Shown here: positions 50,176 to 64,000 of the stretch, in pieces
Layout of the letters: each line of letters begins with the position of its first letter
Position numbering within the stretch: position 1 is the first letter of the stretch
Assembly (NCBI RefSeq): GCF_012271785.1
Contig: NZ_JAAWVT010000001.1
Coordinates: forward strand, 992,001 to 1,056,000
Reading direction: 5' to 3'
DNA: 64,000 nucleotides
Source of the DNA: Paeniglutamicibacter terrestris
GTDB lineage: Bacteria; Actinomycetota; Actinomycetes; Actinomycetales; Micrococcaceae
The notes under the pieces: generated by a model
The model's database searches: none
Told to the model about the DNA's origin: nothing
Seen by the model: the letters and a program-made list of their open reading frames with translations, nothing else
Made by a program: the position numbers and the translations under genes

Positions 50176-51546
50176 CTACTGACCGTGACTGCCGGTGGTT
50201 TCATGTGCGTGCATATCGGCTGAAACACCCGGAATGATGCCCTTTGGTGAGCGCATGAATCCGACGGCGATGGCCGCCACCAGCACCACAACACCCACGC
50301 CGAGATACAACTGGCCGGGCGTCCACGAGGCATCCAACAGGGAGCCGGCCGCCAGCGGGGCGAGGATCGCACCGAAGCGTCCGATGCCGATCGCCCAACC
50401 GACTCCGGTGCCGCGGGTTTGCGGAGCATAAGAAGCCGGTGCCAACGTGTACAGGCCGGCGATGCAACCGTTGATGAGCATGCCCACCACAATGCCCATG
50501 GCAAACGCGAGCGCCAGGATGCCAACGGCCGAAATGAACACCACCATGGTGATCGAGGAGAGCACAGTGAAGACGAGCAGCACCTTGCGCGCCTGCCACT
50601 TGGTGGTCAGCACCCCAAAGAGCAAGGATCCGAAGGTGCCGCCCAGGGTGAGCATGAGCCCTCCGATCACACCCTGGCTTTCGCTCATGCCCGCGGTGAC
50701 CAAAAGCTTCGGAGTCCAGCTGTTGACGAAGTAGAAGCCGAACATCGTGGCGAAAAATGCCACCCAAATCAGCGTGGTGGCGCGGCGATTGGACGGGGCG
50801 AACAGGGCAGTGAGCTGTTGTCCCTTGACGCCGCGCACCGGGGTACGACCATCCACCTCGGGCAGTAGAACCGTGTCAGCACCCAGACGAAGCTTGAGCA
50901 CTAGGGCAGCAAGTCGCTTCTCGGCACGCGGGGGCCGCTTGGTCACCAGGAAGTCAACGGATTCGGGCACCACCGCCAGCAACAGCAGGAAGGCGACGGT
51001 GGTGGTGATGCCGCCAAAGACGAAGACTGCACGCCAGCCATAGCTGGCCTGCAGCGAGACCGCTGCCATGCCTCCCAACGTGGCGCCGACGCCATAACCG
51101 GCGGTGTAGATGCTCACGGCCATACCGCGCCAGCGTTTGTTGGAGTATTCGCTGGTGATCACGTTGGTGCAGGCCAGGATGCCGCCCACGCCCAGTCCGG
51201 TGACCACTCGCCACAACCCCAGCTCGGTCACCGAGTGCGCGGTGGAGGACAGGAACATGCCCGCCGCGGCCAGCCCGGTGGTGAACAGCAGCATCGGGCG
51301 GCGCCCGAAGACATCGGCGAAGGGGGCTAGGAACAGGGATCCGGCGGCCATGCCGAGCAGTCCGGCACTGAGCAGAACACCGAGCTGGGAGCCGCTGAGC
51401 CCAAATTCGGTGGAAACCCGGTTGGCGGTGAAGGCCATGGCCAGCACGTCGAACCCGTCCAGCGCGTTGAGGAAGGTGCAGACGCCAACGACCACCCATT
51501 GGAAGGGTGACATGGGCGAGGCGTCGATGCGGTCTCTGATGTTCAT
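50176..51546 (-). CDS. vanK: Aromatic acid:H+ symporter (AAHS family MFS), vanillate/protocatechuate-type
   Basis: 456 residues, 12 helices. AAHS markers are the first helix FQWVVVGVCTFLNALDGFDVLAMAFTA with the DGFD motif and LFLAPFADVFGRRPMLL (motif A). A long charged loop follows helix 6, then RGTGVGWAIGIGRFGAILAPLAAG in the second half. Relatives (PcaK, BenK, VanK) import hydroxylated benzoates. Third gene of vanA-vanB-vanK, the order seen in Corynebacterium glutamicum. Symbol by context; GGAAG precedes ATG 51546. Confidence 0.88.
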   Translation of the reverse strand: MNIRDRIDASPMSPFQWVVVGVCTFLNALDGFDVLAMAFTANRVSTEFGLSGSQLGVLLSAGLLGMAAGSLFLAPFADVFGRRPMLLFTTGLAAAGMFLSSTAHSVTELGLWRVVTGLGVGGILACTNVITSEYSNKRWRGMAVSIYTAGYGVGATLGGMAAVSLQASYGWRAVFVFGGITTTVAFLLLLAVVPESVDFLVTKRPPRAEKRLAALVLKLRLGADTVLLPEVDGRTPVRGVKGQQLTALFAPSNRRATTLIWVAFFATMFGFYFVNSWTPKLLVTAGMSESQGVIGGLMLTLGGTFGSLLFGVLTTKWQARKVLLVFTVLSSITMVVFISAVGILALAFAMGIVVGMLINGCIAGLYTLAPASYAPQTRGTGVGWAIGIGRFGAILAPLAAGSLLDASWTPGQLYLGVGVVVLVAAIAVGFMRSPKGIIPGVSADMHAHETTGSHGQ

Positions 51547-51640: not shown

Positions 51641-52651
51641 CTAGTTTGGTTCGATGGTGATGATCGCGGGCCCCGTGTGCGCAGCATCGGCCTTGGCACC
51701 GGTGGCGGAGGTGACCGCGCGCGAGACGCAGCAGTTCATCTTGGTCGAGAGGCGCTGCTGGCGTTCGGAATAGAACACGTCGCGGTGGTCAATGGTTCCG
51801 GCCAGTTCAATGACCCGTACCTCGCAGAGTCCGCATTCACCCTTGCGGCAGTGGAACATCATTTCTGCCCCGGCGTCTTCGAGGGCCTCAAGCATGGAGC
51901 GGCCCTGCGGAACGGTGACCTCCAAGTTCAGCTTTGGGACGCGCACGATGAATTCTTCGGGGTCATACCAGCCGCTGTTGCCGAAGGTTTCGTAGCGCAG
52001 GTTCGGCAGATCCAGCTCGCGCTCAACCCAGCCGCGGCGCACCGCGTCCATCAGCCGGATAGGGCCACACATGTACAGCTCGGTGCCGGTATCCGCGCGG
52101 CCCACCAGCTCGGGGACCTTCAGGGAGGATCCCTCGTTATCGATGTGAACCTCAAGCCGGTCCCCGTGTAGTTTTTCCAGCTCGCCCAGATAGGCCATGG
52201 CCTCGCGGCTGCGCCCCACATAGACCAGCGTGTAGTCGGCCTTCAGTCGCTTGAGTACGACTGCCATGTTCGCGATGGCGGTAATGCCGATGCCGCCGGC
52301 CAGCAGGATGTAGCGCTGAGCACCGACGCGCAGCGGAAAGTTCTGCAGCGGCTGGGTGATTTCCAGTCGTGTTCCGGGGACGAGAGAGTGCATGAAGATC
52401 GAGCCGCCGCGCGAGAGCGGCGCCTTCATCACGCTGATCACCAGCCGAGTTCCGTCAGCAGCGGCCTCAACCACCGAGTACGAGCGCTTGACCGATTCCC
52501 CGTTAATCTGGACCATCAGGTCAATGTGGGAACCCGGTTCCGCCTTGATCGGCAGGGAAGGCTCCAGGACGATGCGGGCGATGGCCTCGGCCACCGGAAT
52601 AACCTCGATGACGGTGGCCGACTGCCAGGTTTCAATATTTGTTGCTGCCAT
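51641..52651 (-). CDS. vanB: Vanillate O-demethylase reductase component
   Basis: 336-residue class IA (phthalate dioxygenase reductase-like) protein. FMN/flavin domain with KRSYSVVEAAADGTRL, NAD domain with LLAGGIGITAIANMAVVL and LYMCGPIRLMDAV. The C-terminal plant-type [2Fe-2S] domain has CRKGECGLC and a distal Cys (MNCCVSR). It passes electrons from NADH to the Rieske oxygenase VanA encoded 46 bases upstream. Confidence 0.92.
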   Translation of the reverse strand: MAATNIETWQSATVIEVIPVAEAIARIVLEPSLPIKAEPGSHIDLMVQINGESVKRSYSVVEAAADGTRLVISVMKAPLSRGGSIFMHSLVPGTRLEITQPLQNFPLRVGAQRYILLAGGIGITAIANMAVVLKRLKADYTLVYVGRSREAMAYLGELEKLHGDRLEVHIDNEGSSLKVPELVGRADTGTELYMCGPIRLMDAVRRGWVERELDLPNLRYETFGNSGWYDPEEFIVRVPKLNLEVTVPQGRSMLEALEDAGAEMMFHCRKGECGLCEVRVIELAGTIDHRDVFYSERQQRLSTKMNCCVSRAVTSATGAKADAAHTGPAIITIEPN

Positions 52652-52697: not shown

Positions 52698-53792
52698 TTA
52701 GGCGGAAGGAGTCAGACGGCCCTCGGCCGCCAGCATGGATTCGAGGATGCGGCGTACCCACAGGCCTCCGGCGTCGATGTTCAGGTTGTAGAACTCGTAG
52801 TCGGGGTTGGCGTCGATGGCTGCCTGCTGGGCCATGAGCATTTCCTCGTCTTCACCGAAGACGCCGTGCACCCCGTCGCGCAGCTGGGTGGTGATCAGCT
52901 GGCTGTCCAGGGCGTAGTTACGCATGAAGGCCCAGAAGTAATGGGAGGAGCGATCGGTTTCCGGGGTGATGGTGTTCATGACGAAGCCGTTAACTCCCTG
53001 GCTGCGGTCACCCTCCGGCGCACCGGTTCCCGCCTTGGCCACGCCCACATCGATGTTGATGGTGGAGGGGGCCTCGAAGTTGATGATCTGCCAGCGGTCG
53101 ACCTTGCCCTCGAAGCCTGGGAATTTGTCCCGCATGTTCTTGAGCCAGAACGGTGGGGCGTCGATGTTGTGCATCCAGCGGGTGACCGTCACTTTGTTGC
53201 CCTCTCGGACGGTGACGAAGTCGGACTCGCTGAGCTCTTCCTGGCCGATGGTGGAGGAATGGACAAATTCCTCGTGGGTCAGGTCCATGAGGTTATCCAG
53301 CACCAGCTGGAAATTGCAGGCGGCGTGAATGGTCAACCCATCTCCTGCCCATTCATCGCTGGACATCTGGCTCATGTCCGGGATCAGGTCCGGGTCCGCC
53401 AGCGTCGGGTCACCCATCCAGATCCACACGTAGCGGTAGCGCTCCACGATGGGGAACGAAGGAACCGTGGCGGACGGATTGATGGTTTCCTGGGCAGGCA
53501 TGGAGACGCAGCGGCCTGCCGAGTTGTAGATGATGCCGTGGTAAGGGCACTGGATGGTGTCCTTCTCCAAGGTCTTTCCCATCGACAGCGGGGCCAAGCG
53601 GTGCCAACAAGCATCGGCCAGCGCCACGGCATTTCCGTCTTCGGTGCGGTAAAGAGCCACCGGGCGGTTGGCAATGCGGCGAGACATCGGTTTGCGCGTC
53701 ACCTCATGGTCCCAAGCAGCAACGTACCAAGCGTTCAGCGGGTGGGGCAGGACCTTGTTGGTGGTGGAGCTGGTCGCAGAGACGACTGTCAT
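52698..53792 (-). CDS. vanA: Vanillate O-demethylase oxygenase component (Rieske)
   Basis: 364 residues. Rieske centre: Cys62-x-His64 (ACWHRLAPLS) and Cys82-x2-His85 (QCPYHG). Mononuclear iron site in NLMDLTHEEFVHSSTIGQEE (two His). The INPSATVPSFP and CWHRLAPLS details are VanA-like. It demethylates vanillate to protocatechuate and formaldehyde, feeding the pca pathway. AAAGGA precedes ATG 53792. First gene of vanABK, divergent from the PadR regulator. Related methoxybenzoate demethylases cannot be excluded. Confidence 0.92.
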   Translation of the reverse strand: MTVVSATSSTTNKVLPHPLNAWYVAAWDHEVTRKPMSRRIANRPVALYRTEDGNAVALADACWHRLAPLSMGKTLEKDTIQCPYHGIIYNSAGRCVSMPAQETINPSATVPSFPIVERYRYVWIWMGDPTLADPDLIPDMSQMSSDEWAGDGLTIHAACNFQLVLDNLMDLTHEEFVHSSTIGQEELSESDFVTVREGNKVTVTRWMHNIDAPPFWLKNMRDKFPGFEGKVDRWQIINFEAPSTINIDVGVAKAGTGAPEGDRSQGVNGFVMNTITPETDRSSHYFWAFMRNYALDSQLITTQLRDGVHGVFGEDEEMLMAQQAAIDANPDYEFYNLNIDAGGLWVRRILESMLAAEGRLTPSA

Positions 53793-53905: not shown

Positions 53906-54487
53906 ATGAGTCTTCCCAACGCATTACTGGCCCTGCTCGTTGTCGAGCCCATGACCGGATACGACCTGCACAAGAAATTCGAGTCCTCAGTTGGGCATGT
54001 CTGGCATGCCCCCGATTCGCAGATCTATCCGGCTCTCAAGCGCATGGAGGCCAACGGGTTACTTGAGGGCGAAGACATCCCCTGGGGACCGCGCGGCACC
54101 AAGCGCCAATATCACGTCACTGCTGCCGGCCGGGAGGCGTTCACGTCTTGGATGAACACCCCACTGGAATATGCACGCACCCGCGACCCCGCCCACCTCA
54201 AGGCGGCCTACCTAGAATGGGCTGAACCCGAAGCCGCCCGCGAACAGCTACGGGCACACATCGACCACCACGCAGGACTGCTCGAACAATGGCGGGAGAC
54301 AGTGAAAGAAATCGAGGACGGCACCAGCACCATGCTCAATCGCCGGCTGGCCCACACTTCGGCAGCGGACCAAGAAAAAACCCGCGCGTACAAGCTCTTC
54401 ACCTATGAGGGCCTTATGTCCCAGGCCGAAGCCGAAATCGCTTGGGCCAAGCGCGGACTCACCCTGATTGACCGACTCAACGACTGA
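53906..54487 (+). CDS. vanR: PadR-family regulator (VanR-like) of vanABK
   Basis: 193 residues. The PadR winged HTH (about 1-80) reads NALLALLVVEPMTGYDLHKKFESSVGHVWHAPDSQIYPALKRMEANGLLEGE and KRQYHVTAAGREAF. The C-terminal helical dimer domain (PAHLKAAYLEWAEPEAAREQLRAHI) is of the Vir/PadR_C2 type. Divergent from vanA with shared palindromes, as VanR is in C. glutamicum, where the ligand is vanillate. A good terminator follows. Confidence 0.88.
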   Translation: MSLPNALLALLVVEPMTGYDLHKKFESSVGHVWHAPDSQIYPALKRMEANGLLEGEDIPWGPRGTKRQYHVTAAGREAFTSWMNTPLEYARTRDPAHLKAAYLEWAEPEAAREQLRAHIDHHAGLLEQWRETVKEIEDGTSTMLNRRLAHTSAADQEKTRAYKLFTYEGLMSQAEAEIAWAKRGLTLIDRLND

Positions 54488-54601: not shown

Positions 54602-55465
54602 CTATTTGGCGACCATGGTGATGGCTTCTTCGGGGCGGTGCCCCTGCTTCGCCTTCTGAATCTCCGCATACACATGGTGCCGCAACTCGGTGAAGCGCGG
54701 CAACGACCGAGTCTCCAACTGATCACGCTCGGCCGGCAGATCAATCAAGATGTCCTCCTGCACAATCGTCGGCGAGGAAGACAGAATGATCACCCGCTCC
54801 CCCAAATAAATCGACTCGTCGATGTCGTGGGTGACAAACAGGACCGTCACGCCCAGCTTCTTCCACACGCTGCGGATCAAGTCCTCGAGGTCCGCACGAG
54901 TCTGCGCATCAACCGCGGCGAAGGGCTCATCCATCAGCAACACCTCTGGCTGGTACGCCACCGCCCGAGCAATCGCCACACGCTGCTGCATACCACCGGA
55001 AAGCTGCCACGGATAAGACTTGGGCACGTGCGCCAAGCCCACGGCCTCGAGCGCCTCCTGCACTAAACGCTTGCGTTCCTCCTTGGGAACCCCCGCATTC
55101 TTCAACGGCAACTCCACATTCTCCGCCACCCGCAACCACGGGAAGAGCGAGCGCCCATATTCCTGGAACACCACCGCCATCTTCTTCGGAGGACCAGTGA
55201 TGACCTGCCCGTCAAGGCGCACCTCTCCGGAGGTGGAATTCAGCAGCCCGGCAATGCACTTGAGCAGCGTCGTCTTGCCCGAACCGGAGGGCCCGACCAA
55301 ACACACCAACTCGCCACGACCCAAATCGAAGGTCAGGTTACGCACCGCCTCAATGTCACCGGCATCCGTGTGATAAACCTTCTTCAAGTTCCGCACCGAA
55401 AGCAAGGCCTCACCCTCGGGCAAGGTACGCCCACCAGCATGGGACGTGGGGTTGTTAGACAGCAT
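54602..55465 (-). CDS. ABC importer ATPase (SsuB/TauB/NrtD type)
   Basis: 287 residues. Walker A GPSGSGKTTLLKCI (about residue 50), Q-loop FQEYGRSLFPWL, signature LSGGMQQRVAIARA (about 145), Walker B VLLMDEPFAAVD and switch His in LFVTHDIDESIYLGERV. GAGG six bases before ATG 55465 decides that start over a TTG six bases earlier. It overlaps the upstream permease gene and is last of the minus-strand cluster. Energises the NMT1-type importer. Confidence 0.92.
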   Translation of the reverse strand: MLSNNPTSHAGGRTLPEGEALLSVRNLKKVYHTDAGDIEAVRNLTFDLGRGELVCLVGPSGSGKTTLLKCIAGLLNSTSGEVRLDGQVITGPPKKMAVVFQEYGRSLFPWLRVAENVELPLKNAGVPKEERKRLVQEALEAVGLAHVPKSYPWQLSGGMQQRVAIARAVAYQPEVLLMDEPFAAVDAQTRADLEDLIRSVWKKLGVTVLFVTHDIDESIYLGERVIILSSSPTIVQEDILIDLPAERDQLETRSLPRFTELRHHVYAEIQKAKQGHRPEEAITMVAK

Positions 55466-56228
55466 TTTCAACCTCTTTCAGGCCGTGGTACCAACGCAAC
55501 ACGCGCCGCTCAACCGCTTGGAAAATAAAGGACAAGGCCACACCGATCAAACCGAGGACCACGATGCCGGACCACATTTCGGGGACCGCGAAGGACCGCT
55601 GGAACTGCACAATCGTGAAGCCCAGCCCGGAGGACGAGGCAAACATCTCGGAGATGACCATCAGGATCAACCCAATCGACAACGCCTGGCGCACACCGGC
55701 CATGATCGTCGGGGTCGCCGAGGGCAGGATCTGATAACGGATCCGAGCAAACCCAGAGATCCCATAAGAACGAGAGGTCTCATTCTGCACCGGGTCAATG
55801 GAACGCACACCCTCGATGGTGTTCAACAGCACCGGCCAGATGCAGCCGGAAATAATCACGGCGATCTTCATCCCGTCGTTGATGCCCACCAAAAGCATCA
55901 ACACCGGAACCAACACCGGAGGCGGCAACGCCCGGAAGAACTCGAACACCGGCTCAGTCACCGCACGCATGGTGCGGTTCAAACCCACCGCCAACCCTAA
56001 GACAATGCCCAGTACAATCGCGGCGAGCACACCAACAACCAACCGCATGATGCTGGGCAACACATCGGTGATCAGTCGTTCACCGATCCACGTCTCCACA
56101 AACGTCGTCAACAGCTTGGCCGGCGTAGGAACAAAGAAGTTCGGGGCACCGGAGGTGGCCAGCCACCACCAGAGCAACAAAATAATCGGCAAGCCCAGAA
56201 GGAAACCAACAGATTTCAGGGTTTTCAT
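55455..56228 (-). CDS. ABC importer permease 2 (SsuC/TauC type)
   Basis: 257 residues, about six helices, with the BPD_transp_1 EAA-type loop in RSYGISGFARIRYQILPSATPTIMAGVRQALS (about 150-180). It starts MKTLKSVGFLLGLPIILLLWW and overlaps permease 1 by 4 bases (ATGA). Forms a heteromeric channel with permease 1, a little unusual because SsuC/TauC systems commonly use one permease gene. Confidence 0.9.
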   Translation of the reverse strand: MKTLKSVGFLLGLPIILLLWWWLATSGAPNFFVPTPAKLLTTFVETWIGERLITDVLPSIMRLVVGVLAAIVLGIVLGLAVGLNRTMRAVTEPVFEFFRALPPPVLVPVLMLLVGINDGMKIAVIISGCIWPVLLNTIEGVRSIDPVQNETSRSYGISGFARIRYQILPSATPTIMAGVRQALSIGLILMVISEMFASSSGLGFTIVQFQRSFAVPEMWSGIVVLGLIGVALSFIFQAVERRVLRWYHGLKEVENAV

Positions 56229-57067
56229 ACCGTCGCCTCCCCGCGAACCGACGGATGCCAGGACAGCACCCGCTTCTCAACAATGCGCGTCACGGCATTG
56301 ATACCAACACCCAAGAATCCGGTCGCCAAGATCAACGCATACATCCCGGAAATCGCGCCACCGGACTGCGCCAAAGCGATCTCCTTACCTAATCCCGGAG
56401 AACCAATCAGCAGTTCCGCGGTGATCGCCAAGATCAACGCCACCGAGGCGGCCAGTCGGATACCGGTCATCAAATACGGCAGCATCGTGGGGAACACGAC
56501 ATCGCGCACCCGCTGCACATAGGAGAACCCGTAGGAGCGGGCCGTCTGCATCGCCACGTTATCCACGTCCGCCACCCCGTAGAGCACCTGGATCAACACC
56601 TGCCAGAAGCAGGCATACACGATCAGCAGCAGCGAAGACTCGAGCTTGATGCCAAAGAGCAGCACCGCCAGCGGGATCAACGCGACCGAGGGAATCGGAC
56701 GCAAGAACTCGATGCTCGAGTTCGTCAAATGGCGCAAGAAGGGCGACATCCCAATGACCAGACCCAGCACCAACGCAGCAACCACGGCAATGACCAAACC
56801 AATGAGCCACGCCAGCATGGTGTCCCAGACCGCGACCCAAAACGCGGTGAGGCCCAAGTCGAGAATCAACGCTGCGATGACTTCGGAGGCCGGTGGCAGG
56901 TACTTCGCCTGCACCAGACCAACGACCGGCATGAGCTCCCACAGTCCCAGGAACACCACGATGCCAATCAAACCCAACACCCACTTCGGCCATCCCTTGG
57001 ACGCCGGCCGGCTCGCCTTGGCCTTCACCGAGGCGCGCGTGACTCCTCCAGTAGCTTGAGTGGTCAT
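56225..57067 (-). CDS. ABC importer permease 1 (SsuC/TauC type)
   Basis: 280 residues with a basic N-terminus (ASVKAKASRPASKGWPKW) and six helices. EAA-type loop: TARSYGFSYVQRVRDVVFPTMLPYLMTGIRLAAS. Overlaps the binding-protein stop by 4 bases. Together with permease 2 it makes the channel of the importer in the phenylpropanoid-type cluster. Confidence 0.9.
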   Translation of the reverse strand: MTTQATGGVTRASVKAKASRPASKGWPKWVLGLIGIVVFLGLWELMPVVGLVQAKYLPPASEVIAALILDLGLTAFWVAVWDTMLAWLIGLVIAVVAALVLGLVIGMSPFLRHLTNSSIEFLRPIPSVALIPLAVLLFGIKLESSLLLIVYACFWQVLIQVLYGVADVDNVAMQTARSYGFSYVQRVRDVVFPTMLPYLMTGIRLAASVALILAITAELLIGSPGLGKEIALAQSGGAISGMYALILATGFLGVGINAVTRIVEKRVLSWHPSVRGEATV

Positions 57068-58044
57068 GGCAGCAGAGCTTCGAGGTCAACGGGTTTGGTG
57101 ATCGCACCGAACTCCTGGGCTGCGTCACCGAGCTTCTGAGCGGCTTCGGTGTTGATGTCCACGCGGTAGCGCGGCAGCACGATCTTGGCCCGGGTATCCG
57201 CTTCGATCTTCGTATAGGTGCCCACGATGTCGCGAACTTCCTGCGGGTTCTCGTTAGCGTATTCCAGCGACTTGTTCATGGCACGCTGGAACTTGGCTGT
57301 CAGCTCGGGCTCGGCGGCGACCTTTGCCGAAGTGGTGAAGTAGCCGGCGATATCGAGCTCCGGATCAAAATCGGAGAAGTTGTTGCTGACGACGCGGGCA
57401 CCGTCGCCCTTCGCCTGAACCAAGAAGGGGTCAAGGATCCAGGCAGCATCAACGATTCCCTTTTCCAGGGCCGCAGGTGCCTCCGGGAATGGCACCTCAA
57501 CAAAGTTGACGGTGCTCGCATCCCCGCCATCGTCCTTGACGACCTGAGAAACGGTAATGTCACCGATGTTGGAGAGGTTATTGACCGAGACCTTCTTACC
57601 GGCCAGGTCCTTCGGAGACTTGATCGGTGAGTCCTTGGAGACGACCACGGCTCCGAAGTCCCCGTCTTTGTTCCCCGAGGTGGTGACGCCGTTGGCGACA
57701 ACCTTCATGCTCAGGCCCTTATCGTTGGCGACCATGAGTGAGACGTAGTTGGAGAAGGCGAAATCGTAGCTGCCGGATTGAATTCCCGGGACGATGGCCG
57801 AGCCGCCGGTGGCGGTCTGAATGTCTAGGTCCAGCCCCTCGTCCTTGAAGAAGCCCTTGGAGTCACCCAGGAAGATCGGCGCGGTATCCACGATCGGGAT
57901 GACGCCCACCGTGATCTTTTCTAGGCCCGCGGCACCTGATGCCCCTGCGGAATCAGCGGCCCCACCGCTGGGCGAGCCCGAGCCGCAGGCGCTCAACGCG
58001 AAAATTCCCAATGCTGCCACTGCGAGTGTGAGTTTATTCTTCAT
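57064..58044 (-). CDS. NMT1/SsuA-type substrate-binding lipoprotein A
   Basis: 326 residues. Signal peptide with lipobox LSAC (about Cys20), then a Ser/Gly-rich linker. The mature domain has KITVGVIPIVDTAPIFLGDSKGFF, the usual start of NMT1/SsuA binding proteins, and SPKDLAGKKVSVNNLSNIGDITV. It is coupled to permease 1. The ligand is unknown; by context an aromatic or related carboxylic acid. A second, divergent protein of the same family (59668-60666) is in the cluster. Confidence 0.9.
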   Translation of the reverse strand: MKNKLTLAVAALGIFALSACGSGSPSGGAADSAGASGAAGLEKITVGVIPIVDTAPIFLGDSKGFFKDEGLDLDIQTATGGSAIVPGIQSGSYDFAFSNYVSLMVANDKGLSMKVVANGVTTSGNKDGDFGAVVVSKDSPIKSPKDLAGKKVSVNNLSNIGDITVSQVVKDDGGDASTVNFVEVPFPEAPAALEKGIVDAAWILDPFLVQAKGDGARVVSNNFSDFDPELDIAGYFTTSAKVAAEPELTAKFQRAMNKSLEYANENPQEVRDIVGTYTKIEADTRAKIVLPRYRVDINTEAAQKLGDAAQEFGAITKPVDLEALLP

Positions 58045-58059
58045 GAGGTTTCGGTGTCC

Positions 58060-59604
58060 TTAAGGGATATGTGCCGACGGTGTGGATCCGCCGAAGGTCT
58101 TGCGCAGATCGGTCTTACGGATCTTGCCGCTAGCGGTGCGTGGGAAGTCGTCGGTGAGCACCACCGTGCGGGGAATCTTGTATCTAGCCAGGCGTCCGTC
58201 CAGATGTTCCTGGATTTCCTTTTCGGTGATGTCCTTACCTTCCATTGGGACCACAATGGCCCGCGGTACCTCACCCCATTTCTCGTCCGGGACACCGATA
58301 ACTGCCACCGATGCCACCCCGTCGAGCTCCATGATGGCCTGCTCCACCTCGGCCGGATAGATGTTTTCCCCGCCCGAAATGATCATGTCCTTGAGCCTGT
58401 CGGAAATGAAGAGGAAGCCTTCGGCATCAAGGTGCCCCATGTCCCCGGAGCGGAACCAGTGTCCGTCGATGAAGGCCGCCTCGCTGGCCTCCGGAAGTTT
58501 CCAATATTCCTTGATGACGTTGGGGCCCGAGATCAGGATCTCGCCGGTTTCGCCGACCGGCTGTTCGGCCCCCGAGGGATCAACGATCATCACGTCGGTA
58601 AAGAAGTGCGCGAGTCCGGCCGAACCTGCCTTGGATCGGGAACGTTCGGCCTGCAGCGAGGTGGCACCAGGGGCGGTTTCGGTCAGTCCGTAGCCGCCCG
58701 AGAACCCCAGTCCGCGCTGCTCGTACGCCTCGAGCACGCGCAGCGGGACAGCGGACCCGCCACAGGTCAGCATACGCAGCGAGGAAATGTCAGTAGTGGC
58801 CCAAGCCGGGTGTTCGGCCAGCATCTGGTAGGTGGTGGGAACCCCGGAGAGCGAGGTGATCGAATGGCGTTCGATCGCCCCGAGCACCGCGGAGGGCTCG
58901 AACCTGTCCTGAAGCACCAGGGTCCCGCCCTTGAGCAAGGTCGGGAGCGCGCCCATGCCTAGCGAGGCGACATGGAACATCGGCGCGATCAGCAGGGCCT
59001 TCGCATCGCTGGTCACGTCGTAGTCGACCAGCACATTGAGCGAATTCCAGGTCATGTTCCCGTGCGTCAGCACCGCACCCTTAGGCCTGCCGGTGGTTCC
59101 AGAGGTGTACAGGATGATGGCGGGGTCTTCGTGGTCGACCGAAACGTCCAGATATTCGGCATCCGCTCCCGTCAGGGCGCGTTCATAAGCCGAGTCGACA
59201 CCCGGTGTGTCGTCGAGCACCAGATGGTGCTCGACGGAGCTTTCACCCTTGGCGGCCTGGGCCACGTCATCAAGTGAGACCGGGTTAATCAGCACGGTAC
59301 TACCGGAGTCAACCAGAGCATAGTTCAGTTCCCGCGGTGTCAGCCGGGTGTTCAGCGGAACGAAGATGGCACCAATGCCTCCACAGGCAAAGAGCGTTTC
59401 GAGGAAGGCGGAGTGGTTGTTGCCCAGGTAGGCCACACGGCTTCCCTTTTGCACATTCAATGCGCGCAGTGCGTTGGCCAACTTGTTGATGCGGGTCGCC
59501 AACTGCGCATAGCTGAGGGATAACTCGCCCTCAATGATGGCCGCGCGGTCCTGCGACTTGATGCGTCGCTTGTGGATCCAACCACCGAGCCCTTGGTTAT
59601 GCAT
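58060..59604 (-). CDS. AMP-forming acyl-CoA ligase; candidate phenylpropanoid-CoA ligase
   Basis: 514 residues of the ANL superfamily. P-loop YTSGTTGRPKGAVLTHGN (about residue 166), GYGLTETAPG (about 308), hinge SDRLKDMIISGGENIYPAEVE, C-terminal lysine in RTASGKIRKTD (about 500). ATG 59604 has GGAAAGG five bases upstream. It activates a carboxylic acid to its CoA thioester. In phd/cou clusters a ligase of this kind starts hydroxycinnamate side-chain degradation. Here it lies between two binding-protein genes on the same strand. Substrate by context only. Confidence 0.88.
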   Translation of the reverse strand: MHNQGLGGWIHKRRIKSQDRAAIIEGELSLSYAQLATRINKLANALRALNVQKGSRVAYLGNNHSAFLETLFACGGIGAIFVPLNTRLTPRELNYALVDSGSTVLINPVSLDDVAQAAKGESSVEHHLVLDDTPGVDSAYERALTGADAEYLDVSVDHEDPAIILYTSGTTGRPKGAVLTHGNMTWNSLNVLVDYDVTSDAKALLIAPMFHVASLGMGALPTLLKGGTLVLQDRFEPSAVLGAIERHSITSLSGVPTTYQMLAEHPAWATTDISSLRMLTCGGSAVPLRVLEAYEQRGLGFSGGYGLTETAPGATSLQAERSRSKAGSAGLAHFFTDVMIVDPSGAEQPVGETGEILISGPNVIKEYWKLPEASEAAFIDGHWFRSGDMGHLDAEGFLFISDRLKDMIISGGENIYPAEVEQAIMELDGVASVAVIGVPDEKWGEVPRAIVVPMEGKDITEKEIQEHLDGRLARYKIPRTVVLTDDFPRTASGKIRKTDLRKTFGGSTPSAHIP

Positions 59605-59667
59605 GGGTACCTTTCCCGTGTGCCGGCCGGGCGGCCGGCACACCTGCTTCGTACATTGTTCTAGGGA

Positions 59668-60666
59668 CTACTTGACGGTCAGGGCAGCGATGTCCGGAGC
59701 TTTTGAGAGGAACGTGTGCTTGGCCGCGAGTTCCGATAGCTTGGTCAGCTGTTCGGCCGGTACCGCGCCGTCCCAGGTCTCCATCTTCAGATTCTCCGCA
59801 ACCTTGGCGTCCATCTTCATGAATGTCGGCAACAGCGCCTTCGCTCCGGCCTGGTCGCCTTCGGCAGCGGCAAGGGTTTCTGTCATTGCTGCCTTGAAAT
59901 CTGCGACGACCTCAGGCTTTTCCTCGGCGAATTTGCCGCTGGTGAAACTGACCATGGTCGGTAGGCCGGGGATGGCTTTCTGGTTCGGGTAACCGATCAG
60001 TTTGTTCTCGGGGTTGGCCAAAGCCTTGGAGAGGAACGGTTCGGGCAACCAGATAGCGTCCATGTTTTTGCGTTCCAGCTGGGCTTCCATATCGGGGAAG
60101 GGCATCTCGGAGAATTTGAGGGCACTCGGGTCTCCGCCGTCAATGGCTGCGGATTCCATGATGGTCAAATCACCCTGGGTCTTGAGCGCGTTGACCGAGG
60201 TGGTCTTGCCTGCCAGTTCGGCAAAGTTCTTGATGCCCGAATCGGCGCGCACGACAACACCATTGATGTCATCACCCGTGGCTTTGGAGTTCGAGTAGCC
60301 CGATACGATCTTCATCTGCAGGCCCTTGTCCACCGCGGTCAGTACCGAGAGCGGGTTTCCAACGGCGAAGTTCAGGTCGCCGGTGGAAACAGCCGGCAGC
60401 ATCGCAGCTCCGGCGGAGCTGGTGGTCAGCTCAACGTCAAGGCCGTGCTTTTCAAAGATGCCCTTGTCGATTCCGTATTGCATGGCGACCGACGGAGCGA
60501 TCGGCAGGACCCCGACGACAACCTTGGTCAGTCCGCCGGATTCGGACCCACCGGCAGCGGACGAGTCTGTGGAGGCGGAACCGGAGGGTGAGCCCTGGCC
60601 GCAGCCGGTCAGCGCGAGTGCCGCGATTGATGCCCCAGCGAGAATGGTGGACAGACGCTTCTTCAT
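59668..60666 (-). CDS. NMT1/SsuA-type substrate-binding lipoprotein B
   Basis: 332 residues. Lipobox LTGC (Cys about 22) and a long Ser/Gly linker. The mature domain starts KVVVGVLPIAPSVAMQYGIDKGIFEKHGLDVEL, then NFAELAGKTTSVNALKTQGD. Same family as protein A but clearly diverged. AAGGAG precedes ATG 60666. It has its own promoter (60744-60772) and so probably begins the transcript that continues through the ligase and importer genes. Confidence 0.9.
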   Translation of the reverse strand: MKKRLSTILAGASIAALALTGCGQGSPSGSASTDSSAAGGSESGGLTKVVVGVLPIAPSVAMQYGIDKGIFEKHGLDVELTTSSAGAAMLPAVSTGDLNFAVGNPLSVLTAVDKGLQMKIVSGYSNSKATGDDINGVVVRADSGIKNFAELAGKTTSVNALKTQGDLTIMESAAIDGGDPSALKFSEMPFPDMEAQLERKNMDAIWLPEPFLSKALANPENKLIGYPNQKAIPGLPTMVSFTSGKFAEEKPEVVADFKAAMTETLAAAEGDQAGAKALLPTFMKMDAKVAENLKMETWDGAVPAEQLTKLSELAAKHTFLSKAPDIAALTVK

Positions 60667-60743
60667 GAGTGCTCCTTGGTGAAAATGATGGCCTAGGCGC
60701 CTACGCCCCAACCGCGAGTAATGTGACCCCTGCCACATAAGAT

Positions 60744-60772
60744 AATCTAAACTCAATCGTTGAAAAAATCAA
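60744..60772 (-). promoter_or_regulatory. Promoter with palindrome in the spacer, binding-protein B gene
   Basis: Minus-strand TTGATT (60772-60767), 17 bases, TAGATT (60749-60744). The palindrome TCAA-TCG-TTGA (60753-60763) lies in the spacer and could be an operator. No regulator gene is nearby inside the window. Confidence 0.7.
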
Positions 60773-60889
60773 TAGTTGTCATTCTTTGTTCATGACTTCT
60801 TGGATATGGCGTCATATTCGCCAGGGCCTAGTACAGGATGCGACCAGAACCGGGAGCTCCCCAGTGGAACCCGGACGTTGGGATAGCTT

Positions 60890-61345
60890 CTACGCGTAGA
60901 AGCGGTAAATCCCACGGGAAACGACGGCTGGCTTTGTGGCGCCCTCGACCTCGACGACCTGGTCAACGGCGATCTGGTAGCCGCCCTTGACCTCTTCGAC
61001 CTCGGCGATCTGCGCCTTCATGCGTATCTGCGCACCCACGGGGACCGGCGAGGGGAAGCGGACCTTGTCTAGTCCATAGTTGACGCGCGTGCCAACGCCT
61101 GTGACATCAAAGAGCTCGGACCAGAAGGCGATCTGCAGGCTCAGTGAGAGGTAGCCGTGGGCGATCGGCCCGCCGAACGGGCCATCCTTGGCCTTTTCCG
61201 GGTCGGTGTGGATCCACTGATGATCATCCGTCGCGTCCGCAAACGTATTGACCTGCTCCTGGGTGACGGTGCGGAATTCGCTGTACCCGAGGTCGGTGCC
61301 GGCGGCGGTTGCGAGCTGCTCGTAAGAAAGAACTGTCTGGCCCAT
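60890..61345 (-). CDS. MaoC-family (hot-dog) acyl-CoA hydratase
   Basis: 151 residues, single hot-dog domain. Hydratase-2 motif ATDDHQWIHTDPEKAKDGPFGGPIAHGYLSLSL gives the catalytic Asp/His pair (about residues 38-43). Third enzyme gene after the SDR-amidohydrolase-acyl-CoA dehydrogenase set, 71 bases downstream. Expected role: hydrate the enoyl (cinnamoyl-type) CoA to the 3-hydroxyacyl-CoA. Same position as the MaoC-like gene of the phenylpropanoid cluster of C. glutamicum, as I recall it. Confidence 0.9.
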   Translation of the reverse strand: MGQTVLSYEQLATAAGTDLGYSEFRTVTQEQVNTFADATDDHQWIHTDPEKAKDGPFGGPIAHGYLSLSLQIAFWSELFDVTGVGTRVNYGLDKVRFPSPVPVGAQIRMKAQIAEVEEVKGGYQIAVDQVVEVEGATKPAVVSRGIYRFYA

Positions 61346-61416
61346 GATGGGTACTCCTTTTAGAGGTGGTTGGTTTTGAGATGTTTGAAAACTGACAGGT
61401 GGTGCCGCGGGAGCTT

Positions 61417-62604
61417 CTAGCGGAAGGCCCCGATGCCGGTGATGGCCCGGCCGAGGATCAACGCATTGATCTCGTCAGTGCCCTCATAGGAATAAATGGC
61501 TTCGGCGTCGGCGTGGAAGCGGGCGACGTCGTAATCAAGCACGATGCCGTTGCCCCCGCAGACCTCCCGCGCTAACGCTGCGGTTTCACGAAGCATCCGC
61601 GCGGTGAACATCTTGGCCATGGCCGAGTTCTCATCCTTGTAGATGCCCTCGTCCTGGGCCTGGGTCAGGCTGACCACCATGGCCAGCGAAGCTGTCACGT
61701 TGGTGAGCATCGTGGCGAGCTTTTCCTGGATCAGCTGGAACGACGCCAGCGGCTTGCCGAACTGGTGGCGCTCGGACACGTACTTCAGTGCCGCCTCGTA
61801 GGCGCCAGCCGAAGCACCGGCGGCGATCCAGGCGACGTCCGAGCGCATATTACGCAGGCAGGCGGCGACGTCAGCGAAAGAGTTGATGTTCGCCAGCCGC
61901 GCCGAGGCGGGGACCAGGACGTCAACCAAGTCGATGTCGGCGTTCTGCATGATCCGTAGACTGGTCTTGCGTTCGATCTTGCTTAGCTTCACGCCCGGTG
62001 CGTCGGTGGGCACTAGGAAGCACTTGACCTTTCCGTCGGCCGTGTCACGGGCGAAGACCGCCAGGACGTCCGCTTGGGCCGCTCCGCCGATCCAACGTTT
62101 GGCTCCGTTGATGACCCAGTGACCGCCGCTCTCGTCCTCCTCGAACCGCGCCTCGGTTTCCAGTCCCCCGGCGATGTCCGAGCCATGCTCCGGCTCGGTG
62201 AGGGCAAAGACGCCCTTGTACTCGTAGGAGGCGATCTTCGGATCCAGTTCGGCGACCTGGGCGGCGCTGCCGCCAAGGTTCACCGTGGTGCGAAACAGCC
62301 CGGACTGGGCGTTGTAGAAGGTGACGACCGAGGCGTCCACTCTGGCCAGCTCGAAGTTCCTGAAGCCCCCGAAGAGGCCGCGGACCAACTCACCATTGGC
62401 CAAAACCTCGGCCGGACGCATCATGTCCAGCTGAACCAACGGTTCGATGATCGCCTCGGGAAATTCCCCGCGCTCCCAGTGGTCGTTGAGCACTGGGCGC
62501 ACATGCTCATCGAGCACGCCGCGCAGGCGCAACAGTGCCGCGCGCTCCGCAGCGGAAAGCAACCGGGCGAAGCCGTATTGGTCGCTCGGGTAGAAATCGG
62601 TCAT
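61417..62604 (-). CDS. Acyl-CoA dehydrogenase (GcdH-like)
   Basis: 395 residues. FAD/substrate motifs: FALTEPEHGSDIAGGLET, WVINGAKRWIGGAAQADV, RHQFGKPLASFQLIQEKLATM and the catalytic Glu in YSYEGTDEINALILGRAITG (about residue 373), in the position used by short-chain and glutaryl-CoA dehydrogenases. ATG 62604 overlaps the amidohydrolase stop (ATGA). It would introduce the double bond into saturated phenylpropionyl-CoA compounds (for example dihydroferulate); cinnamates would bypass it. Confidence 0.9.
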   Translation of the reverse strand: MTDFYPSDQYGFARLLSAAERAALLRLRGVLDEHVRPVLNDHWERGEFPEAIIEPLVQLDMMRPAEVLANGELVRGLFGGFRNFELARVDASVVTFYNAQSGLFRTTVNLGGSAAQVAELDPKIASYEYKGVFALTEPEHGSDIAGGLETEARFEEDESGGHWVINGAKRWIGGAAQADVLAVFARDTADGKVKCFLVPTDAPGVKLSKIERKTSLRIMQNADIDLVDVLVPASARLANINSFADVAACLRNMRSDVAWIAAGASAGAYEAALKYVSERHQFGKPLASFQLIQEKLATMLTNVTASLAMVVSLTQAQDEGIYKDENSAMAKMFTARMLRETAALAREVCGGNGIVLDYDVARFHADAEAIYSYEGTDEINALILGRAITGIGAFR

Positions 62605-63494
62605 TTCCTGTCCAGCCCCAGCACCCGCGCCGCGTTGTCCTTGAGGATCATTGGGCGCACCTCGTCCTTGAGCGGTAACTCCGCGAAGGCGCCGAGCCAT
62701 TTCTCAGGGGTGATCAGCGGGTAGTCGGTCCCGAAAAGTACCTTGCGGGATAGCACGTTGTTGCTCATCTTCACCAGGGAGGCAGGGAAGTACTTCGGGC
62801 TCCAGCCAGAGAGGTCGATGAACACATTCGCCTTGTGCGTGGCGATCGAGTTGGCCTCGTCCTGCCACGGGACCGAGGGGTGGGCCATGATGATGGTGAG
62901 CCCCGGGAAGTCCGCCGCAACATCGTCGAGCAGCAGCGGGTTGGAGTAGCGCAGCTTGATACCGCGCCCGCCCGGAAGCCCCGCGCCCATACCGTTCTGT
63001 CCGGTGTGGAAGATGCACGGAAGCCCGAGTTCCTCCAATGCCGACCAGAGCGGGTAGAACTCTTCGGAAGAGGGGTCAAAGCCCTGCACCGAGGGATGGA
63101 ATTTGAAACCACGCACGCCCAGCTCGTGTGCTTGGCGGCGCGCCTCGATGATCGCGGCCGGGCCGGTGCGCGGATCGACCGAGCCGAACGGGATCAGCAC
63201 GTCGCTGTTGCGTGCCGCCCCTGCCACCAGGTCATCAATCGAGTTCGGTTCGTGACCCAACGCGGTGCGGGCATCGACGGTGAACAACACGGCTGCCATC
63301 TTCGCCTCGCGGTAGACCTCGGCGATGCGGTCCACCGAAGGGGTTCGCTCCTCGGACTTGAAGTATGCGGCCGAGGCCTCGAAGAGATCATCGGGCATGG
63401 CCTTGTGCCCGCACTCGTCGACCTCGAGGTGCACGTGCATGTCGATTGCGGTGATCGCGTCAAGATCGATGTTGGATTCGTAACGGATGCTCAT
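62601..63494 (-). CDS. TIM-barrel amidohydrolase; candidate aryl-3-ketopropionyl-CoA cleaving hydrolase (CouO/Phd-type)
   Basis: 297-residue amidohydrolase 2 family member. N-terminal His-x-His in AIDMHVHLEVDECGHKAMP (about residues 17-22), RGFKFHPSVQGFDP, PCIFHTGQNG, MAHPSVPWQDEA and the metal Asp in FGTDYPLITPEKWLGAF. That Asp is residue 257, the same number as the metal-ligand Asp257 reported for CouO of Rhodococcus jostii (recalled). CouO replaces thiolase and thioesterase in p-hydroxycinnamate deacetylation. Gene order with SDR, acyl-CoA dehydrogenase and MaoC supports this. A simple decarboxylase (ACMSD-like) is the alternative. Confidence 0.87.
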   Translation of the reverse strand: MSIRYESNIDLDAITAIDMHVHLEVDECGHKAMPDDLFEASAAYFKSEERTPSVDRIAEVYREAKMAAVLFTVDARTALGHEPNSIDDLVAGAARNSDVLIPFGSVDPRTGPAAIIEARRQAHELGVRGFKFHPSVQGFDPSSEEFYPLWSALEELGLPCIFHTGQNGMGAGLPGGRGIKLRYSNPLLLDDVAADFPGLTIIMAHPSVPWQDEANSIATHKANVFIDLSGWSPKYFPASLVKMSNNVLSRKVLFGTDYPLITPEKWLGAFAELPLKDEVRPMILKDNAARVLGLDRK

Positions 63495-63513
63495 TGCCGG
63501 CGGGGTCCCTTTG

Positions 63514-64000
63514 CTACTTGGCTGCCGGTTCGGGCTGCAGCTCGGCGGGAAGCTCTGGGAACTTCTCGCCGACAGACTGCTGCATGTCGGCAAACGGGAA
63601 GCGTTCCTGCAAGGTCTCGAAGTCCCACCCGCCGTCGTTGAATGCCGACTCGATGGCTTCGGGGTGGCTCCACAGCTGGAGGCGGTCCCCGCCGGCGCCG
63701 ATGGCCTGACCGGTGATGTTGCCGGCTTCCTCGGTGGCGAGGAAGGCGATGAGTCCGGCGACGTCGTCGGCGGTGCCGAAGCCCAGTTCCTTGCGGAAGA
63801 AGTCCGGCATGGCCTCCCCGCGCTCGTCTGCCTCGACAGCCTTGGCGAAGAAGGGAACGGTTTTGGTCATGGCGGTGGCCGCAACCGGGATCACGGCGTT
63901 GACGGTGACGCCGGCTCGCTTCATTTCCATGGCCCAGGTGCGCACCATGCCCACGATGCCGGCCTTGGCGGCGGCGTAATTGGTCTGGCCGAAGTTGCCG
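63514..64000 (-). CDS. Short-chain dehydrogenase, 3' part (3-hydroxyacyl-CoA dehydrogenase candidate)
   Basis: C-terminal about 161 residues; the 5' end is beyond the right edge. Readable features are the catalytic Tyr/Lys block GQTNYAAAKAGIVGM at the edge, AMEMKRAGVTVNAVIPVA, and GTADDVAGLIAFLATEEAGNITGQ with the usual SDR ending. After this comes an extra tail of about 40 residues (GGWDFETLQERFPFADMQQS) not present in most FabG-like enzymes. First visible gene of the phenylpropanoid-type set, 19 bases before the amidohydrolase start. Expected to oxidise the 3-hydroxyacyl-CoA. Confidence 0.88.
   Translation of the reverse strand, partial: GNFGQTNYAAAKAGIVGMVRTWAMEMKRAGVTVNAVIPVAATAMTKTVPFFAKAVEADERGEAMPDFFRKELGFGTADDVAGLIAFLATEEAGNITGQAIGAGGDRLQLWSHPEAIESAFNDGGWDFETLQERFPFADMQQSVGEKFPELPAELQPEPAAK

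Follow-up and report, generated by a model that had tools for sequence, protein, structure and literature searches.

A phd/cou-type side-chain cluster in Paeniglutamicibacter terrestris with a predicted CouR-controlled, NMT1-type importer for hydroxycinnamates

Introduction

The phd genes of Corynebacterium glutamicum (phdT, phdA, phdR and phdB-E), whose PhdT is a protein of the major facilitator superfamily (MFS), are one of the closest described counterparts of a minus-strand run of ten genes at 54602-64000 of a 64,000-nucleotide stretch of Paeniglutamicibacter terrestris DNA (assembly GCF_012271785.1, contig NZ_JAAWVT010000001.1, positions 992,001 to 1,056,000), the whole of which is called the window here. 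The two loci share an enzyme set with a ligase and a divergent MarR regulator, a likeness that was checked through the Corynebacterium uropygiale locus L129, but where C. glutamicum has the permease PhdT, the window has an ATP-binding cassette (ABC) importer with two binding proteins. PhdA is described as the ligase and PhdT as a phenylpropanoid permease (PMC10576375).

The cou regulon of Rhodococcus jostii RHA1 resembles the window in its CouR-like repressor, its operator box with a 5-bp spacer, and its amidohydrolase step, the enzyme CouO belonging to the amidohydrolase superfamily (PMC4737184). The CouR boxes of RHA1, cATTGA-N5-TCAATg, overlap the -35 element and precede couN/couR, couT and couH, and the published effector of CouR is hydroxycinnamoyl-CoA (PMC4737184); what follows the second boxed promoter in the window, by contrast, is an NMT1-type importer together with a coenzyme A (CoA) ligase. 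In Rhodopseudomonas palustris, the CouPSTU and TarPQM systems, whose genes accompany catabolic ones, take up coumarate and ferulate by means of binding proteins; CouP and TarP bind hydroxycinnamates with nanomolar affinities, and CouPSTU is said to be controlled by a CouR (PMC3610893). CouP is a LivK-family and TarP a DctP-family protein (PMC3610893), whereas both binding proteins of the window belong to the NMT1/SsuA family. Other ABC systems for aromatic acids include the phthalate importer PatDABC of RHA1 (PMC10973024, PMC3983516), which differs from the window's importer in substrate, predicted here to be hydroxycinnamates and other aromatic acids, and a PcaQ-regulated ABC cluster of Sinorhizobium meliloti linked to protocatechuate (PMC13406360).

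Results

Gene content of the run and its importer

Every gene of the run was confirmed by the list of open reading frames and by a Pfam scan, the Pfam and NCBIfam scans covering ten proteins of the window. In order of reading on the minus strand, the features are as follows (L numbers denote fetched loci, G numbers genomes; SBP, substrate-binding protein).

63514-64000, minus strand: short-chain dehydrogenase/reductase (SDR) oxidoreductase, PhdB-like, partial in the window, the full gene reaching the equivalent of 64440 (L006:11515-12441); copies occur in named phd loci
62601-63494, minus strand: amidohydrolase-superfamily enzyme, PhdC/CouO-like, predicted to carry out the last step of side-chain removal (Amidohydro_2 PF04909, E 1.1e-54)
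61417-62604, minus strand: acyl-CoA dehydrogenase (ACAD), PhdD-like (PF00441/PF02770)
60890-61345, minus strand: MaoC hydratase, PhdE-like (PF01575, E 8.5e-28)
60760-60772, no strand assigned: CouR-box-like inverted repeat TTGA-N5-TCAA, 106 bp upstream of the SBP2 start at its far end
59668-60666, minus strand: SBP2, NMT1-family lipoprotein, predicted to bind hydroxycinnamates (PF09084, E 3.1e-20, with a longer start scanned)
58060-59604, minus strand: predicted hydroxycinnamate-CoA ligase, PhdA/CouL-like (AMP-binding PF00501, E 1.2e-92), which recurs adjoining phd genes
57064-58044, minus strand: SBP1, NMT1-family lipoprotein of the same importer, predicted to bind an aromatic acid (PF09084, E 2.5e-41)
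56225-57067, minus strand: importer permease 1 (BPD_transp_1 PF00528)
55455-56228, minus strand: importer permease 2 (BPD_transp_1 PF00528)
54602-55471, minus strand: importer ATPase, start codon uncertain (TTG) (ABC_tran PF00005, E 1.3e-35)

The ligase, ACAD, MaoC, SDR and amidohydrolase genes thus stand together in one cluster of the phd/cou kind, and the PF09084 lipoproteins, BPD_transp_1 permeases and ATPase make up an importer of the NMT1/SsuA type. Neighboring genes are separated by -17 to +71 bp, with the sole exception of a 223-bp gap between MaoC and SBP2. SBP1 and SBP2 are 35% identical to each other, and each carries a lipobox cysteine (LSAC, LTGC; read directly). A first-pass annotation made from the DNA letters had named these enzymes, the two permeases and the ATPase on one strand and two diverged binding lipoproteins flanking the ligase gene, all of which the scans bear out, except that the SDR gene lies only partly within 54602-64000, its remainder and the MarR gene falling in the adjoining stretch. 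The best NCBIfam matches of the ATPase, SaoA and a taurine ATPase, are both under cut-off. A generic promoter scan gave no site, and terminator-like sites did not exceed shuffled controls. Among named records, the amidohydrolase is closest to that of Paeniglutamicibacter gangotriensis (93%), followed by P. psychrophenolicus (92%); relatives of this enzyme in four genomes of one genus (G042, G230, G311 and G373) show one in-frame TGA within the matched stretch, which may be either an overhang of the alignment or a true interruption.

A CouR-like regulator and operator-like sites before both units

Beyond the SDR gene, just outside the window end, a divergent gene encodes a MarR regulator (P0002) of the CouR/PhdR kind, whose best Protein Data Bank matches are the RHA1 CouR structures 5CYV and 3FM5 (E 2.3e-25). 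Among the residues with which CouR contacts ligand or DNA, Asp10, Phe13, Asn27, Val37, Arg38, Tyr40 and Ser41 are kept, Arg36 is replaced by Lys, and Gly12, Ser16, Val22, Leu23, Val26 and Val113 differ; Glu stands opposite His117, at the alignment's edge.

The box before SBP2 reads ATTGA-TTTTT-TCAAC, and a second one, GTTGA-CTTTT-TCAAG, was located past the window end (equivalent coordinates 64520-64532) in the SDR-MarR intergenic region, so that a putative operator with the CouR-type core stands at the enzyme promoter as well. In the 4.34-Mb genome there are 142 occurrences of the core TTGA-N5-TCAA (and 30 of a reversed-pattern control), from which about 0.007 sites would be expected in the 223-bp gap before SBP2. 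The short pattern TTGAYTTTTTCAA matches exactly at two places in the genome, both of them at this locus, and at four more with one mismatch; since it was derived from those same two sites, the 142 core sites are the fair figure. The operator was not among the matches listed in a search for inverted repeats (25 of 61 pairs).

At that genomic frequency a lone match carries little weight and conservation counts for more. The core was counted within 400 bp before each gene of the fetched loci, with L063 and L068 dropped as copies of L110 and L152 and with other overlaps between the genome sets, as well as the near-identical L151 and L175, retained. It precedes SDR in 79 of 89 cases and MarR in 77 of 86, SBP2 in 9 of 26 and the CoA ligase in 9 of 79. 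Before the remaining genes it is rare: SBP1 2/28, permease 1 1/34, permease 2 0/33, ATPase 0/39, MFS 2/50, MaoC 0/90, ACAD 0/86, amidohydrolase 1/99, vanA 0/7, vanB 0/7, PadR 0/9, pobA 0/9, pcaH 0/9, the MFS gene beside the van genes 0/5 and IclR 0/10. Random 400-bp windows contain the core in 544 of 23,800 cases, and the windows before internal genes are a soft control because they are mostly coding. Runs headed by an importer gene or by the ligase have the core in 11 of 28 cases within phd loci versus 0 of 29 outside them, a count in which the boxed L084 lies outside the distance filter and L151 and L175 are each included.

One alternative holds that the match upstream of SBP2 is fortuitous and that the importer has a regulation of its own, as both the 142 genomic cores and the scarcity of boxes before SBP1- and permease-headed units would allow. 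Against it, the far end of the box is kept at 102-108 bp before SBP2 in six loci (L006, L103, L104, L106, L108 and L150), and importers detached from the enzymes have boxes before them as well (L081, and L084 in genome G390), so that we regard a chance match as improbable. A control site common to importer and enzymes suggests that the importer fetches hydroxycinnamates.

The transporter slot in phd loci of relatives

Relatives of the locus were taken from named records as the best 80 of 573 confirmed amidohydrolase candidates, with flanks of up to 10 kb, and a locus counted as phd when three or more of the four enzymes SDR, amidohydrolase, ACAD and MaoC were matched with at least 45% identity. 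Seventy-six of the 80 qualify, and L157, L167, L177 and L182, which are without the enzyme core, were dropped. A divergent MarR gene adjoins SDR in 75 of the 76, and 71 preserve the order MarR(divergent)-SDR-amidohydrolase-ACAD and also have MaoC. A likeness to the Corynebacterium phd cluster in content and largely in order had been proposed at first pass; in C. uropygiale (L129) the ligase lies with an MFS gene beyond MarR.

What varies is the transporter. An MFS gene occurs in 40 of the 76 loci, in line with the expectation that phd/cou systems use MFS-type uptake; importer components occur in 18, neither in 18 (8 of which are shortened by contig ends), and both in none. In many Arthrobacter and Paenarthrobacter loci, the MFS gene sits between MaoC and the ligase, which is the slot of SBP2 here: this holds for 34 of the 76, the other six MFS loci having the gene outside the slot or no ligase in view (the slot protein was assigned to PF07690 on the 441-residue copy of L064). 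In 14 loci, MaoC is followed directly by SBP2 among the mapped genes. On an amidohydrolase tree of 77 rows, the window included, the distribution of MFS and importer needs at least five changes. The mutual exclusion of the two transporters was considered as independent evidence and dropped, because a relatedness-aware pair test was not significant (median p 0.5), and it is kept as description only. Nor are the two exclusive genome-wide, as G390 combines an MFS gene within the cluster (L152) with a boxed importer encoded on a separate contig (L084).

Binding proteins in unselected genomes and in other aromatic contexts

In 396 genomes of the order that were not chosen for phd genes, the amidohydrolase was found in 55 (E 1e-40), an SBP1 relative in 65 and an SBP2 relative in 47 (E 1e-15). 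Seven of these carry an SBP2 with at least 50% identity, in every case with a CouR box, a LigM-type gene or phd genes nearby: the fetched stretch around SBP2 holds phd genes in the window genome, G099, G281, G069 and G283, a box precedes SBP2 in G390 on a contig other than that of its phd cluster, and in G319 SBP2 lies beside a LigM-type vanillate/3-O-methylgallate demethylase (NF047885, E 2e-270), about 22 kb from the amidohydrolase. In a tree of 59 binding proteins, SBP2 forms a clade of 22 rows with 100% support in the Shimodaira-Hasegawa-like approximate likelihood ratio test, 21 of them in a phd locus or boxed and the exception (L083) beside LigM, a tally that is not unbiased since many rows come from phd-selected loci. 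SBP2 stands without a permease in the fetched stretch in L088, L109 and L140.

The context of SBP1 is looser, and its grouping in the tree is mixed. SBP1 at 58% identity or more is present in seven genomes, and the survey of its context covered six of them, the SBP1 stretch of G281 being left out. Phd genes accompany it in the window genome (G000) and in G319, a boxed SBP2 lies ahead of it in G390, and in G368 it stands with pobA, pcaH and a benzoylformate-decarboxylase-like gene. The proposed co-occurrence of importer and enzymes is upheld for SBP2, which is not rare with the enzymes, and only in part for SBP1, which is often elsewhere in the genome.

Relatives of SBP1 were also sought on plasmids, where five regions were opened of the first eight listed (609 records matched). 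Those of pTC1 and pLDW-10 (SBP 54%) have genes for a ring-hydroxylating dioxygenase, a PdxA-like protein and a reductase as neighbors. The R. antarcticus relative (35%) is beside cupin, fumarylacetoacetate-hydrolase and maleylpyruvate-isomerase genes, which look like a gentisate route, and that of V. paradoxus (32%) is beside an mhp-type 3-hydroxyphenylpropionate/3-hydroxycinnamate hydroxylase. On pRHL1 of RHA1, an NMT1 protein (E 6.8e-23; 24% identity with SBP1), two permeases and an ATPase that shares 43% identity with that of the window adjoin ring-hydroxylase and class II aldolase genes of the phthalate type; judged by gene content, this importer is most likely patDABC and its NMT1 protein PatD, which would give PatDABC the same composition as the window's importer. 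Both pLDW-10 (L185) and pTC1 (L186) are typed as conjugative, and along with the close importer relative (ATPase 82%) they carry an amidase gene.

These contexts bear on a second alternative, in which the importer takes another aromatic acid, such as vanillate, 4-hydroxybenzoate, benzoylformate or dihydroferulate, within a lignin-monomer supercluster, and hydroxycinnamates enter by the MFS protein on the vanB side or by diffusion. Binding proteins of both types beside the LigM-type demethylase of L083, an SBP1 importer adjoining benzoylformate-decarboxylase-like, pobA and pcaH genes (L086), the SBP1 relatives beside dioxygenase operons, and the vanAB-like and MFS genes next door all point that way. 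The putative CouR-type operator of SBP2, with hydroxycinnamoyl-CoA as the CouR effector, and the position of SBP2 in the slot that MFS occupies inside the hydroxycinnamate operon of relatives argue against it, and on balance this alternative appears unlikely, though it has more in its favor than a chance box. In L083 (8091-13609, genome G319) the LigM-type gene lies beside a PadR regulator (65% to that of the window) and two NMT1 lipoproteins, with no permease in the stretch, which suggests that those lipoproteins may bind methoxylated benzoates. The window genome itself has a second NMT1-type importer at L183:3789-7362 (C1, about 688.8-692.4 kb; SBP 32% to SBP2, ATPase 48%), adjoining genes that by eye resemble alcohol and aldehyde dehydrogenases.

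Family and fold of the binding proteins

AlphaFold models of SBP2 and SBP1 (predicted local distance difference test 86.6 and 88.0, respectively) both match the NMT1/SsuA fold, which with the Pfam family sets them apart from the LivK-type CouP. An importer of sulfonates, taurine or thiamine precursors that lies here by chance is a third alternative, raised by Pfam, by the SsuA family as top NCBIfam match of both proteins, and by near folds that include formylaminopyrimidine (FAMP)-binding 3ix1, thiamin-binding 4nmy, SsuA and TauA. The NCBIfam scores of the two proteins are, however, well under cut-off for SsuA (TIGR01728, 106.9 and 89.0 bits against 163.5) and taurine (TIGR01729, 46.7 and 39.9 against 304.25), and Rfam gave no match at gathering score in the 19 kb of L006, so that no thiamine pyrophosphate riboswitch was found there. 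Linkage to phd genes recurs across many genera, and the NMT1 class is wider than sulfonate, taurine and thiamine, because it has members that bind pyrroloquinoline quinone (PQQ) and probably phthalate. We retain this alternative at very low probability, and the fold neighbors, judged on predicted models, do not decide the ligand of either protein.

Flanking aromatic genes

Downstream of the run, at lower window coordinates, lie the following genes.

53906-54487, plus strand: PadR-family regulator (PF03551), which recurs beside vanAB-like and phd genes in L106, L121, L150, L154 and L178
51641-53792, minus strand: vanB-like (51641-52651) and vanA-like (52698-53792) genes, with copies of 58-93% beside the phd loci L106, L121, L150, L154 and L178

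The vanA- and vanB-like names are our assumption from synteny, as no family model named either gene and the vanA-like protein has a distant match only in NCBIfam. The gene at 50176-51546, adjoining vanB, we take to be MFS-like. On the other side, past MarR, lie genes for 4-hydroxybenzoate 3-monooxygenase (pobA) and the protocatechuate 3,4-dioxygenase beta subunit (pcaH). With vanAB-like, pobA and pcaH genes flanking the phd-type run, the region therefore seems, from its gene content, to hold the whole route from hydroxycinnamate to ring cleavage. Also outside the window, three genes between MarR and pobA (L006:13512-16332), for a binding protein, a permease and an ATPase, resemble those of a molybdate importer, and L103 and L104 have an ATPase match at a like place. 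In L106 (JABBNV010000016.1), labelled as an Acidobacteria metagenome-assembled genome, the phd-importer-van cluster is 77-95% identical to that of the window, and L106 is most likely a misbinned Micrococcaceae contig.

Discussion

The reading that best fits these comparisons is a CouR-controlled NMT1-type importer of hydroxycinnamates (through SBP2) and probably of other aromatic acids (through SBP1), and that the importer serves the aromatic acids of this pathway we consider likely. The run would encode a beta-oxidative side-chain pathway of the phd/cou kind for p-hydroxycinnamates such as ferulate and p-coumarate, with its own ATP-driven NMT1/SsuA importer. SBP2 would bind hydroxycinnamates outside the membrane and pass them to the two permeases and the ATPase, the ligase would form the CoA thioester, and the ACAD, MaoC, SDR and amidohydrolase enzymes would cut the side chain to leave vanillate or 4-hydroxybenzoate, which the VanAB-like pair, PobA and protocatechuate dioxygenase would carry to ring cleavage. 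The thioester is proposed to release the CouR-like MarR repressor from both operators, between SDR and MarR and before SBP2, so that uptake and breakdown would be induced jointly. SBP1 may be a second binding protein for the same importer, probably for another aromatic acid, and we are less sure of this division of labor.

Several observations weigh against this reading. The CouR pocket and DNA-contact residues are kept only in part in the MarR protein, and the core is common in the genome and seldom found before SBP1 or permease 1. SBP2 has no box of its own in 17 of 26 cases, and in 8 loci it lies within a run headed by SDR or MaoC. The MFS gene beside vanB could likewise import these acids, the MFS/importer exclusion is not significant, and SBP1 is frequently apart from the enzymes: no aromatic gene was recognized near it in G183 and G099 or, in a partial scan of neighbors, near the SBP1-type importers L085, L087 and L089, and the A. 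sulfonylureivorans plasmid region gave no clear aromatic context. The nearest Foldseek neighbors bind thiamin or its precursors, pyrimidines, sulfonates, taurine or PQQ. The link between importer and phenylpropanoid genes that the first-pass annotation drew nonetheless gains from the predicted CouR-type operator before both units, the recurrent linkage, and the MFS gene in the same slot in relatives.

As to novelty, no NMT1-family hydroxycinnamate importer appeared among the papers listed by searches of an open-licence library. The earlier suggestion of a new or little described importer should nonetheless be narrowed: NMT1-type import of aromatic acids as such is likely preceded by the RHA1 phthalate importer, and some SBP1 relatives adjoin other aromatic operons. 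What appears new is a phd/cou cluster with an NMT1-type importer, apparently under the same repressor, where relatives carry MFS. More tentatively, and with somewhat less than even confidence, one NMT1-type permease/ATPase core may serve several lipoproteins from separate catabolic operons, in an interchangeable system where each further binding protein would give the cell access to a further substrate, and this would make a third hydroxycinnamate-binding class beside CouP and TarP. Its pointers are SBP2 in hydroxycinnamate operons, other lipoproteins beside vanillate, benzoylformate and dioxygenase genes, and L088, L109 and L140, with no permease in the fetched stretch.

Uptake of lignin monomers is a poorly described step in actinobacteria. 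If the reading holds, an ATP-driven hydroxycinnamate importer would widen the cargo of a class known chiefly for sulfur compounds, nitrate and thiamine precursors. It would also be of use in strains for converting lignin hydrolysates, and it would put right automatic annotations in which these proteins are labelled as binding sulfonate or nitrate. The CouR box may likewise guide the choice of candidate ligands for NMT1 proteins without an assignment.

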